From: Maridesulfovibrio hydrothermalis AM13 = DSM 14728
Lineage (GTDB): Bacteria; Desulfobacterota; Desulfovibrionia; Desulfovibrionales; Desulfovibrionaceae
DNA length: 64,000 nt
NCBI RefSeq assembly: GCF_000331025.1
Contig: NC_020055.1
Coordinates: 124,001 to 188,000 of the forward strand
Reading direction: 5' to 3'
Part shown: piece after piece, positions 9,609 to 14,321 of the stretch
How the letters are laid out: each line of letters starts with the position of its first letter
Numbering within the stretch: position 1 is the stretch's first letter
Position numbers and translations under genes: made by a program
The notes under the pieces: model-generated
What the model saw: only the letters and a program-made list of their open reading frames with translations
The model's database searches: none
What the model was told of the DNA's origin: nothing

Positions 9609-9647
9609 ACTTCCTGTCCGTATTTTTGCGGGCAGGAAGTTCGTTTT
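9609..9647 (+). terminator. Terminator after the STAS gene
   Basis: ACTTCCTGTCCG pairs with CGGGCAGGAAGT across an 8-nt loop, followed by TCGTTTTTT. Confidence 0.85.
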
Positions 9648-9712
9648 TTGGTTATGATGAATATCTATTTGTGCAATTAAATGTTCACTGGCATGTTCGG
9701 TGGAGGGTAAAT

Positions 9713-11050
9713 ATGAGCGGTTTATTTACATCACTAGCAGTGATGCTTTCTCCGAGAGGGCTGACGGCTGTTGGAAATGGAGCCGGTTTCGGCGGCGTGG
9801 CATTTATGGCGGCTTTAATCTTGGCAGCGGCGGCCTCGCTTTATACTGCGCGCAGTATGGAGGCACTTGGAACCGGTGCCAAGCGGGCCACGCCTTTTGA
9901 CGGGTTCGCTTTTGGACTTCTTGATGCGGCGCGCCTTTTTACATTGACAGTGCTGGCTGTTTCATGGCTGGGGATTGCCGGGTATGCAGTGAATGAGATT
10001 TTTGCCCTTTGGTTTCCAAATCTTGCAGCTTCTTTTCTTATTCTCGGCCTCGCAGCCGGAGCCTGCTTTTTGACCGATAAAAGCGGAACTGATTTATACG
10101 GCGGTTGTTTGACGCTTGCTTTTTGCGCTTTTGTTTACGTTGCAATAATGGCTACCCAGCCTGTTGGTGCCGGGATCGGATATCCGTCTGTCGTACCGCA
10201 GTTTTTCTCGCCGTTTATGCCGCAGGCGTTGGAGATGTCGGGCTATCTGGGGTGGCTGGACATTCTCTTTTTAGCCGTACTTGTGTTTGCCGGCTTTGAC
10301 CTGCCACTTGTTTTCGAAAATAAATCATCCAGAGTTGTACCGGCTGTCATTTTGATACTCGGTGCATTTCTTCTTTTTATATGGGGAGCACTGCTTGTCG
10401 CTGTTCCTGAAAAGCTTGCTGATACCTACGTGCCACACTTGATGGTAGCGAGAAATGTTTTTGGTGAAGGCGGAAGACTGCTTATGGGCAGCACTATTGT
10501 GCTTGGAACTTTTGCGGCTCTTTTCAGTTTTTTCCAGATTTTAGGGCATCGCTTAAAAGGCATTATCACAGAGGAATATGCGCACCATGCCCCCAGAGTG
10601 GCGGCGGTGGTTCTGGCAATTGTTCTCGGCGCACTTCTGGCTACGGGCTGGGCTGGAGAAGATGCTCTTGAGTCGCTTATTTCAGCCGGGCTGTGTTTTT
10701 GGTTCGCAGCATATACTCTCATTGATCTGTTGAATATTATTGCTATCCGTAAAGCAGGAGGCAGACCTCTGATTGCGCTGCCGGTGATGTTTATCCATCT
10801 TATCGCTGCTATTGCAAGCGGAATGTATATTGAGTTCCCGCTTTTCTTTTATTATGCACTGGGTGCAATGACCGTTGCCGGACTTGTTTTCGGGGTGAGT
10901 TATTATCGATCCGGCATTGAGTTGAGCAAAGAGCAGGCTCTTGTTAAAACAGAGTCCGTGGACGAGAATTCTGACGATAGCGGGCAGAAAAATGAGCAAA
11001 GTGATGATGAACCTGTTGCTGAAGGATTAAATATAGTCGAGTATAAATAA
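9713..11050 (+). CDS. Multipass membrane protein, permease-like
   Basis: 445 residues with about eleven predicted membrane helices and a charged cytoplasmic tail after residue 410 rich in Glu, Asp and Gln. The early segment GNGAGFGGVAF and general layout recall APC-superfamily amino-acid or solute permeases, but I cannot name a substrate, and the family call is tentative. The start is the ATG behind GGAGGG; an in-frame ATG 87 bp upstream would overlap the preceding terminator and is rejected. No close operon partner: the next gene begins 165 bp later behind its own candidate promoter. Confidence 0.6.
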   Translation: MSGLFTSLAVMLSPRGLTAVGNGAGFGGVAFMAALILAAAASLYTARSMEALGTGAKRATPFDGFAFGLLDAARLFTLTVLAVSWLGIAGYAVNEIFALWFPNLAASFLILGLAAGACFLTDKSGTDLYGGCLTLAFCAFVYVAIMATQPVGAGIGYPSVVPQFFSPFMPQALEMSGYLGWLDILFLAVLVFAGFDLPLVFENKSSRVVPAVILILGAFLLFIWGALLVAVPEKLADTYVPHLMVARNVFGEGGRLLMGSTIVLGTFAALFSFFQILGHRLKGIITEEYAHHAPRVAAVVLAIVLGALLATGWAGEDALESLISAGLCFWFAAYTLIDLLNIIAIRKAGGRPLIALPVMFIHLIAAIASGMYIEFPLFFYYALGAMTVAGLVFGVSYYRSGIELSKEQALVKTESVDENSDDSGQKNEQSDDEPVAEGLNIVEYK

Positions 11051-11122
11051 TTGTTATAGTTGAACTGTGTTTGTATTTTTGTTGTGACTGGCTTTAGTTT
11101 GAATCATAATCTATTTTTTACC

Positions 11123-11150
11123 TTGTTCTACCGGCTTTATTTGATACTAT
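11123..11150 (+). promoter_or_regulatory. Candidate promoter of the rhodanese gene
   Basis: TTGTTC, 16-nt spacer, TACTAT, about 60 bp before the start codon. Matches are partial. Confidence 0.3.
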
Positions 11151-11215
11151 GGAAGGGAATCAATTAAGTTTCTTTTTTCTACTGTCTAGGTATGAATAAA
11201 GGCATGGAGGGTAAA

Positions 11216-11632
11216 ATGAATAGACGTATTCTCTTGATTCTGGTTGCTGCAATTTTTGCCACTGTGGCAAGTTTTGCTGTTTTTCAGGAGGCTGGTTCGG
11301 CGGAGGATGTACCGCGCATATCAATAGAGCAATTAAAGCGGAAGCTTGGTTCGGATAATCTGGTCATTATCGATGCCCGAAGCGGTTCAGACTGGCGGGG
11401 AAGTGAGTTCATGATTGAAGGGGCCGTTCGCGGTAAGGCTGGACAGGAAAAGCAATGGGCTAAGAATCTGCACAAGGATGCCGAGATCGTTGTTTACTGT
11501 GCTTGACCCAGTGAGTACACAAGCTCCCGTGTGGGGCGTATACTCAAGAAGATGGGCTTTAAGGATGTAAGCGTCCTTTTAGGCGGATGGCATAAGTGGA
11601 ACAGAGCAGGATATCCTGTTGAAGCAAAGTAA
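11216..11632 (+). CDS. Periplasmic rhodanese with predicted selenocysteine (in-frame TGA)
   Basis: Read through one TGA, this is a 138-residue single rhodanese domain behind a signal peptide or anchor (residues 1-29, RRILLILVAAIFATVASF). The start is the ATG behind GGAGGG. The TGA at 11504-11506 is codon 97, right after VVYCA and before PSEYTSSRV, exactly at the rhodanese active-site loop. The frame after it stays open and continues a typical domain: RILKKMGF, then LLGGWHKWNRAGYPVE, then TAA. Related rhodaneses often have CACP here, so selenocysteine would replace the second cysteine. A SECIS-like hairpin starts 6 nt after the TGA. Conventional annotation would stop at 11506 and give a truncated protein. 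A point mutation or sequencing error is the alternative. Confidence 0.72.
11513..11545 (+). promoter_or_regulatory. Putative bacterial SECIS element
   Basis: Downstream of the TGA, GAGTA pairs with TACTC at the base and GCTCC with GGGGC (one G-U pair) at the top, closing the loop CGTGT. The loop begins 21 nt after the TGA and carries a GU in its first three positions, within the loose rules known for bacterial SECIS elements bound by SelB. Confidence 0.55.
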
Positions 11633-11652
11633 TTATTGTAATCAAATCAATT

Positions 11653-11690
11653 AAAAACGGGGATACTCAAGCGGGTATCCCCGTTTTTTT
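11653..11690. terminator. Terminator between rhodanese and MscS genes
   Basis: AACGGGGATAC and GTATCCCCGTT pair across an 8-nt loop with A-run before and T-run after, so it can serve the rightward rhodanese gene and the convergent mscS gene. Confidence 0.9.
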
Positions 11691-11807
11691 ACTTTTCAAC
11701 TGATGCAAGGGGGGCATCAGCCGCGGCTGTTCGCGGCGGAGAAGTTACCCGTTTGGGATCATTTTGCTAAATTAAGCGTTATCACAACCTTATGAGTCCA
11801 TTTAATT

Positions 11808-14321
11808 TTAATCCGGCATATCCATTTCGATTTTGCTAAAAGTCCTGTGTTTGCGGATGGCTGCTGAGCGAAAGCATTTGCCGACTCTTTTGCGTTTTTC
11901 TTTGAGTGCTTCACGTTGCGCCGCAATCTGCGCTGCTTCGTCTCCTTTGGGTTTGTATTTGGTCTTAACTCCTCTGAAGGCCACTTTGATTTTTTTGGCC
12001 TGAAATTTTTGATCAAGTTCATCTACGATGTCAGATTCTGTGGGAAATTTATCTTCAAAGTGGTTAACCCAGAAATAAATTTCAAAATCCAGCCCCAGCA
12101 TACCAAATCTTTTAAATAAGATAGTCGGTGCGGGATCTTTTAGTATTTTTGGATGTTTCTTGACTACTTTCATCATAATTTTCTTTGCTTTTTTAAGCTT
12201 GGTTCCGGGTACAAGAGTTACGGGAATGGCAACTCTGATTCGGGTGTCCTGATAGTTTAAATTGACTATTTCACCCTTGAGAAAGCTGGAATTGGGGATG
12301 ATGATCATGCTGTTATCGAGGGCTTTTATGGTCGTATTGCGGATTGAAACATCGACAACTTTCCCGATGATGTTTTTGTGCTGGAGGGTGTCCCCTTTTT
12401 TGATGGAGCCGCCGAAAAGAATGATCAGCCCGCTTACAAAGTTGCTGACAATGTCCTTGAGACCGAAACCGATACCGATGGACAGCCCGCTGGCAATCCA
12501 GGTCAGGGCAGACATGGGAATGCCAAGCAGAAAAAAAGATGAGAATAAAAATACGACCCAGACAATGTATGATCCAATGGTCGAGAAAGTATGGGCCACT
12601 GAGGATTCAATTTTTCGCCCGCCGATTTCTGTGTTGCTCACAAAGCTTTTAAGCCAGAATAGAATCAGGCGTGAAGTGAAGAATAGTATCAAAATGTAGA
12701 AAAAACTTTTAATGGATATATCTGCACCGCCGATAGTTACATCCATGTGCCGGAAGACAAAACGGGCAAACGGGATGCCACCCATATAGGCTGTGGCCCA
12801 GCCGATAAACAGAAAAATTATGACTGACACTGAAAGCGGGTAGAACATCTGCACCATTTGGTTATGCTGTCTGGCAGCCCGCACTGCTTCCTCTTTTTTC
12901 TGTTTTTGTGCATTATTTTCTTCCTCGGTGGCAGATTCCTGCGGAGTAAAGTCTTTAACAGGAGCCACCTCAGTTATCATGATGGTTTTCAGAGCAGTGC
13001 AAACCTGCAGGGTGACGAGGAACAGAAACCATACTTGAGTCAAAATCATGGCTTGCGTGCCGAAACCGAAAATTGTTACCAAAGCACCTGTAGCCAGAAT
13101 AATTTTATTAGCCTTGAAGGTCACTCTGGTAATATTTAAAGTGTACCTGTTGCGGCTGTAATGCATGGCTGCAAGCCCTGCGATGCTAAGAAACAGCCAG
13201 ATAATACCCAGACAATCTACCGGAATGGTAAGCATGTGCAAGAAGTCTCCGGCGGTCATCAAACACCAGAGTGTGAACATGGGTGTGTAGATAAGGGTAG
13301 CAGGTTTGGCATCTTCTCTGGCCCATAAAAAATTTCGGGCGCAGATGATAATTCCGAGAGTTATTGATTCGGCCCAGATCAGACTGGTAATCTGGTTGGA
13401 GGTGAATAGCGTTATGTGGCGGGAAATGAGTATCGCAGCTCCAAAGGAGATGAGCAGTACCCCCCGGCTGTATAATGCCAGATTATGTTTTTTAAAAAGT
13501 GGTCTTTTAAGCAGGGATTTGACGCCATGACGGAGCAACAGCCACAGAATGATGGTTATTATGGCCATGTAGGTTAAAAAATCATTCCAGTTAACCCATA
13601 CAAACAGCGGGTGATAAAATTTTGAATATCCATGTTCCCACTCCTTGAAGGAATATGAAATATCAATCCAGCTATGCGAAGAGAGCAGGGAAGGCCCGCG
13701 TTCAAAATAAAAGTTTTTGATGGATTCAGCGTAATATTTTGATGTTAATTCTCTGTTTTCCTGAACGCTTGCGGCAAGGACGTCAGATTTGGCAAGGGCC
13801 TTATCAAGTTCTTGTTTGAATTTAGCTGTTTCAGCCCGCAGGGTTGCAAATTTGCTTTTGGTTCGCTTTAACAGGGCTTTATTAAAACTGCTTTTTACGT
13901 TTTCTTGAATTTTAATTTCTCGAAGAACCGAAAAAGTCCTTTTAATTTTTTTCAGCCTGTTTTTTTCTATCAATAAATCAGCTTTTGCCAGTTTAATATA
14001 TGAATCAACATCATTAAGCTGTAAAAGTACGGTGCGGTATGACCAGGGCGTGCGTTTTGCCAGTCCGCGCAAAAGTTTAAGTTGATCGAGCCTGTCTTGA
14101 GCTTTAGTCATACGCCGGTCATACGTTTTAAGCATGGACGGCATTTTTTCCATCAGGAGGTTGATTACTTTACTTTGTTCCATGATGTCAGACTCGATGC
14201 CTTCAATCATGTTAGTCCAAGTCTGCGATGTGGATTCAGCCTTTGCGTGCAGAGAGAAACTCATGATAAAAATCATGGCAACCAAGGTGAGTATTGTAAT
14301 TTTCCGCATAAAAATGGTCAT
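11808..14321 (-). CDS. Large MscS-family mechanosensitive channel
   Basis: 837 residues. A signal peptide (residues 5-28) leads into a periplasmic, lysine-rich coiled-coil domain of about 200 residues; then come about ten membrane helices and a canonical MscS core near residues 600-770 (ALTWIASGLSIGIGFGLKDIVSNFVSGLIILF is the pore-helix region, followed by the beta domain with GKVVDVSIRNTTI). This layout matches the large MscK/YbiO/YjeP-type channels that open under membrane tension during hypo-osmotic shock. The C-terminus is very basic. GGAGA lies upstream of the ATG. It is transcribed alone and convergent with the rhodanese gene. Confidence 0.88.
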   Translation of the reverse strand: MTIFMRKITILTLVAMIFIMSFSLHAKAESTSQTWTNMIEGIESDIMEQSKVINLLMEKMPSMLKTYDRRMTKAQDRLDQLKLLRGLAKRTPWSYRTVLLQLNDVDSYIKLAKADLLIEKNRLKKIKRTFSVLREIKIQENVKSSFNKALLKRTKSKFATLRAETAKFKQELDKALAKSDVLAASVQENRELTSKYYAESIKNFYFERGPSLLSSHSWIDISYSFKEWEHGYSKFYHPLFVWVNWNDFLTYMAIITIILWLLLRHGVKSLLKRPLFKKHNLALYSRGVLLISFGAAILISRHITLFTSNQITSLIWAESITLGIIICARNFLWAREDAKPATLIYTPMFTLWCLMTAGDFLHMLTIPVDCLGIIWLFLSIAGLAAMHYSRNRYTLNITRVTFKANKIILATGALVTIFGFGTQAMILTQVWFLFLVTLQVCTALKTIMITEVAPVKDFTPQESATEEENNAQKQKKEEAVRAARQHNQMVQMFYPLSVSVIIFLFIGWATAYMGGIPFARFVFRHMDVTIGGADISIKSFFYILILFFTSRLILFWLKSFVSNTEIGGRKIESSVAHTFSTIGSYIVWVVFLFSSFFLLGIPMSALTWIASGLSIGIGFGLKDIVSNFVSGLIILFGGSIKKGDTLQHKNIIGKVVDVSIRNTTIKALDNSMIIIPNSSFLKGEIVNLNYQDTRIRVAIPVTLVPGTKLKKAKKIMMKVVKKHPKILKDPAPTILFKRFGMLGLDFEIYFWVNHFEDKFPTESDIVDELDQKFQAKKIKVAFRGVKTKYKPKGDEAAQIAAQREALKEKRKRVGKCFRSAAIRKHRTFSKIEMDMPD

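Follow-up and report, generated by a model that had tools for sequence, protein, structure and literature searches.

The gene at 11216–11632 on the forward strand of the window, the 64,000-nucleotide stretch of DNA analysed here, is very probably a genuine selenoprotein gene in which UGA 11504–11506 is read as selenocysteine (Sec). The predicted product is a rhodanese of 138 residues, a member of the family NF041203, with Sec at codon 97. SelB and tRNA-Sec would decode this UGA, directed by a SECIS element that starts 16 nt downstream. Sec at the TGA was the central claim of the original prediction, and it is supported by the family match, the recurrence of the TGA in relatives, the presence of the Sec machinery and a covarying stem. 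The rhodanese selenoprotein family is already catalogued, and the window gene adds one more member. The newer point, a double-Sec form together with cytochrome fusions, concerns relatives of the window protein and not the window protein itself.

The frame that runs from ATG 11216 to TAA 11630–11632 is interrupted once, by TGA 11504–11506, which lies between VVYCA and PSEYTSSRV as had been described. Reading through gives YCAUPSEYTS, in which the rhodanese catalytic cysteine, Cys95 (TGT, 11498–11500), is followed by Ala and Sec97; the codon of Cys95 is itself TGA in 12 relatives. Downstream of the TGA the frame reads PSEYTSSRV...LLGGWHKWNRAGYPVEAK and then ends in the TAA. That the frame stays open past the TGA was correct, and its length of 42 codons is revised to 41 sense codons. 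ATG 11216, with GGAGGG ahead of it at 11206–11211, looks a better start than ATG 11192. From ATG 11216, 96 residues lie ahead of the TGA, and a product stopping there would be without 42 of the 138 residues. Standard ORF calling does end at 11506, as was expected for a conventional annotation, and the truncated length of 104 residues is obtained only with ATG 11192. As judged by comparison with congeners, the codons downstream of the TGA show protein-level selection: third codon positions diverge more than first and second positions in all eight congener loci compared with the window, as in one example in which 14 of 36 third positions differ versus 5 of 36 and 6 of 36 at the other two. The first 30 codons (11216–11305) may encode a signal peptide or membrane anchor, as suggested by hydropathy and by a low-confidence model helix at residues 3–23. 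By hydropathy only, the best 19-residue mean is 2.81, and this signal-like N-terminus would place the protein in the periplasm. Beyond the stop codon, a terminator-like (intrinsic) hairpin with a T-run occupies 11653–11688 on the same strand; four such sites occur in 10900–11900 against a shuffle mean of 0.9.

With the TGA read as C, the product scored 152.1 bits against NCBIfam NF041203, ‘rhodanese-related (seleno)protein’ (rhodanese_LYCAU; curated cut-off 115), in a full-length alignment of residues 15–138 onto positions 3–126 of the 126-position model; the score in a six-frame search of the genome was 144.6 bits. Pfam PF00581 (rhodanese) was matched as one domain with 53.5 bits, against a gathering score of 22.2. 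The YCAU motif is of the CxU type, the Sec codon standing two residues past the rhodanese cysteine. In its list of selenoproteins, a 2026 review has an entry ‘rhodanese-like domain-containing protein form 3, CxU’ with one Sec (PMC13188914), and PMC9312934 has an entry COG0607 form 2, CxU; both give TKB26178.1 as the example protein. No difference was found between NF041203 or form 3 and the window protein, which have the CAU motif and the single Sec in common. TsoB (NF045694, rhodanese/DsbD fusion-like) is likewise a selenoprotein with a rhodanese part, but the window protein is unlike it, scoring 24.1 bits against a cut-off of 805; the entry for TsoB gives a UxxxxU motif with two Sec (PMC13188914).

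The TGA recurs at the same codon in most relatives above the family cut-off. Only the 10 or 12 best first-look candidates per genome were scored in these searches, and absences are therefore soft. Among 58 relatives searched, 13 exceeded the NF041203 cut-off, 12 with TGA and one (L033) with Cys. Within the genus the gene was found above cut-off in 9 of 17 genomes; the remaining 8 of 17 gave no match above it, so that the function would seem dispensable or replaceable. In the class (348 genomes) there were 36 above cut-off, of which 34 have TGA at the codon two past the cysteine and two, L033 and L070, have Cys, both reading YCTC and both from one genus. The 11 class rows below cut-off lie outside these counts, and five of them were inspected: L034 (YCKHP), L076 (YCARGG), and L035, L074 and L075, which carry TGA at the same codon and bring the total to 37 class loci. 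The phylum sample of 395 genomes, which like the class sample contains the genome of the window, had 61 above cut-off with 84 matches, the window's included: 73 with TGA, two with Cys, eight with Ser or another form lacking Sec, and one (L181) with the TGA one codon later. A further 44 phylum rows below cut-off are outside these counts. The motif script missed seven of the 83 phylum loci above cut-off, and these were inspected separately; L095, L102, L151 and L170 read CAU, L102 also with an in-frame TAA, and L179 (stop before CAS), L189 (CSS) and L195 (SGS) are without Sec.

In L169, L182, L187, L190, L194, L179, L189 and L195 the Sec site holds Ser or has been lost in another way, and several Sec-less members share a genome with a Sec-bearing member. 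The shifted TGA of L181 lies in the motif YCCSU, and four of its five stem pairs are kept. From the below-cut-off loci of the 58-relative search (L036–L050), L038 and L048 were inspected on the correct strand. L048, with a TGA at 1738, is a different double-rhodanese protein in which an in-frame TGA falls in CMGVRUPYS, possibly another Sec-rhodanese form. A set of 103 pattern matches among genome contigs contained no confirmed relative.

A search for relatives with Cys at codon 97 had been proposed as a check, and such forms exist, in L033 and L070 (YCTC) and in six of six plasmid relatives (YC[ASVT]CP). The latter are rhodaneses from Burkholderiales and Granulicella plasmids, six fetched of 24 records, that have the same long loop, YC[ASVT]CP[NS], with the second Cys at the Sec site. 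They differ from the window protein in having Cys for Sec, with 30%–37% identity across 72%–80% of the query. Two of the six fetched are annotated as DedA/VTT-rhodanese fusions (e.g., WP_258285231.1).

The putative SECIS is an apical stem-loop at 11523–11537 on the forward strand, with GCUCC (11523–11527) paired to GGGGC (11533–11537) across the loop CGUGU (11528–11532), as indicated by covariation, a synonymous-codon control and the published consensus. The hairpin had first been placed 6 nt after the TGA. This position was not borne out: the conserved stem of five pairs starts 16 nt downstream of the TGA, and the longer single-sequence hairpin did not stand out from shuffled sequences (z −0.77; 43 of 200 folded at least as well). 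The lower part of the 11504–11560 fold was dropped because the single-sequence fold is not significant and only the apical stem is common to the relatives. Of the 104 TGA loci of the class and phylum sets, 100 keep the complete set of five pairs. When synonymous codons were redrawn for the same proteins (200 draws), the five pairs survived in 12% of sequences on average and in no more than 21% in any draw. The stem count excludes L095, L102, L151, L170, L179, L189, L195 and L075. Across the 35 distinct sequences of the class set, 97.7% of cells at stem positions 20–24/30–34 from the TGA are paired. Changes on both sides are seen in three of the five pairs, which 2 of 500 shuffles reach, and the covariation score of 0.318 was reached by none of 500 shuffles. 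The number of further pair types in the same test was unremarkable (40 of 500 shuffles gave at least that many). Sliding the partner by one to three columns lowered the paired cells to 28%–62% and the score to 0.140 or less, and RNAalifold independently recovered the same stem. Loop position 2 is G in all 103 distinct sequences, with a TGA-to-loop distance of 21 nt. As worded in PMC13188914, the rule for bacterial SECIS elements calls for a G in the first or second loop position, 16–37 nt from the TGA. The window stem-loop, with its small apical loop, its G and its 21 nt, agrees with that rule.

Loss of pairing is seen in 3 of the 36 tabulated class TGA loci (L027, L072 and L065), which are short of one or two pairs. 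Four Cys forms retain 3, 3, 2 and 1 of the five pairs, and the six tabulated Ser-site forms keep 5 (L169), 4 (L181), 3, 3, 2 and 1. The case of L169, in which Ser replaces Sec and all five pairs are retained, and the incomplete stems of the three class loci speak against the proposed reading. Rfam SECIS_1 gave no match in the genome and none in 14 control genomes either, and is thus uninformative. From the aligned relatives, the stem fits a bacterial-type SECIS, and selection on it beyond the protein code is measurable.

The genes for Sec insertion, whose presence had also been proposed as a check, are all found in the same genome: selA (601.6 bits), selB (389.7 bits), selD (330.8 bits) and tRNA-Sec, the product of selC (83.3 bits), all above their family cut-offs. 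ARAGORN names the last a tRNA-SeC with anticodon tca. The selD gene of this genome (L010, C2:575466–576386) has an in-frame TGA of its own near the N-terminus, in AAGUAAK, and likely encodes a second selenoprotein; by this TGA the genome appears to encode at least one further selenoprotein.

A structural model of the window protein, calculated with the TGA as Cys, has a pLDDT of 87.0, with 92–96 per ten-residue block from residue 31 onward. The residues past the TGA form helix 101–112, strand 117–121, helix 124–130 and strand 135–137. The four best PDB matches to the model are named rhodanese-bearing proteins, and the 50 matches listed include a Wolinella polysulfide-sulfur transferase, a persulfide dioxygenase-rhodanese fusion and persulfide reductases. 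Wolinella Sud (1qxn), the forty-third of the 50 listed, shares the rhodanese fold with a TM score of 0.63; its identity to the window protein is 23%. Sud is a periplasmic polysulfide carrier and is not known to have Sec or a CxU pair.

In the mechanism that we propose, Cys95 would take up sulfane sulfur as a persulfide in the periplasm, the donor being polysulfide, thiosulfate or a persulfide on another protein. The selenol of Sec97, two residues on in the same loop, would then attack the Cys95 persulfide, with release of sulfide and formation of a Cys-Se bond whose re-reduction would fall to a redox partner. In some relatives, a fused eight-heme cytochrome may be that partner. We consider it about an even chance that the protein performs such periplasmic persulfide chemistry, with Sec resolving the neighbouring Cys persulfide; substrate, chemistry and export are inferred, the last two from sequence and fold. 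CxU is also a redox-type pair, 12 relatives have UxU and six carry the eight-heme cytochrome fusion, all of which would suit a selenoprotein that acts not in sulfur transfer but as a disulfide/selenenylsulfide redox protein, its CxU serving like a thioredoxin motif. Such a role is possible but rather doubtful, as the rhodanese fold retains the catalytic Cys position and the active-site loop is ordinarily used for persulfide chemistry.

The UxU relatives (YUxU), in which the catalytic Cys codon is also TGA, comprise 12 loci in 11 genomes and seven genera (L031, L101, L107, L111, L122, L154, L163, L164, L166, L168, L175 and L196). Each has an open frame downstream, all five SECIS pairs and one downstream SECIS. 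On a tree in which both positions were masked, nine changes are required to explain the UxU label, at least four of them forced by well-supported branches; support is good for 22 of the 110 inner branches of this tree, 55 being open, and L034, L075, L095, L102, L151, L170, L179, L189 and L195 are left out of it. In L031, L065, L158, L166, L168 and L196 the rhodanese is fused in frame with a c-type cytochrome portion bearing eight CxxCH motifs. L149, a candidate long fusion by its frame length, was rejected as it has no CxxCH. The genomes concerned are often fragmented, with up to hundreds of contigs, and single cases could be errors; the recurrence of these forms makes assembly error unlikely for the set as a whole. 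We regard as probable a repeatedly evolved double-Sec YUxU form, in which one SECIS would serve two UGAs 6 nt apart and which is sometimes fused to an eight-heme cytochrome, the window protein being of the CxU form. The rhodanese row of PMC13188914 (CxU, one Sec) makes no mention of UxU forms or cytochrome fusions, both of which occur among relatives that score above the NF041203 cut-off. The term ‘UxU’ does not occur in the text of PMC13188914 and PMC12013277, and no report of a UxU rhodanese form was found in the open-access literature.

Directly upstream of the rhodanese gene, a frame of 474 codons at 9626–11050 on the same strand, with a likely start at 9713, encodes an unannotated multi-pass membrane protein. 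It has no Pfam or NCBIfam match and is assigned an APC (LeuT-type) transporter fold by fold comparison; its position next to the rhodanese is conserved in three genera. The model of this protein (pLDDT 80.2) matches amino-acid transporters of the APC type, among them the antiporter 5j4i (TM 0.67) and ApcT 3gia (TM 0.63), at 13%–15% identity. Of 345 class genomes, 23 have the protein, all in the three genera, and no genome beyond these genera among the 345 matched it at 1e-10. All 19 rhodanese carriers found in the three genera have the membrane protein upstream (the rhodanese of G228 being below cut-off), which corresponds to 19 of the 23 genomes, on the same strand with 150–408 nt between the matched stretches. 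This constant adjacency might suggest that the rhodanese works with the APC-fold protein on one particular sulfur or selenium compound brought in from outside and not on general periplasmic polysulfide. We think this unlikely: in four genomes (G001, G004, G015 and G229) no rhodanese motif adjoins the membrane-protein gene, the rhodanese is also present in other genera where the membrane protein is unmatched at that threshold, and the adjacency partly reflects shared descent. Downstream of the rhodanese gene lies an MscS-type mechanosensitive channel gene (PF00924) at 11808–14321 on the reverse strand, and an MscS homologue adjoins the rhodanese in each of the three further neighbourhoods compared from the genus (L082, L083 and L084).

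Standard ORF calling terminates at 11506, but it is highly improbable that translation simply ends at this TGA, or that the codon arose by a disabling mutation, with a decaying remnant behind it, given the same-codon TGA in 37 class loci and in 73 of the 84 phylum matches above cut-off, the protein-level selection on the downstream codons and a stem conserved beyond coding needs. With Sec as the preferred reading of this codon, ordinary ORF calling cuts the protein within its active-site loop, and in such bacteria the content of sulfur and selenium genes is consequently under-read. In the relatives with two TGAs, the question of whether a single bacterial SECIS is enough for a pair of nearby UGAs can be put directly to the test, as can the role of selenocysteine in a rhodanese. 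If the double-Sec form is real, it would represent a redox enzyme that handles sulfane sulfur (or selenium), possibly through a diselenide at its active site, and is connected to an electron carrier.
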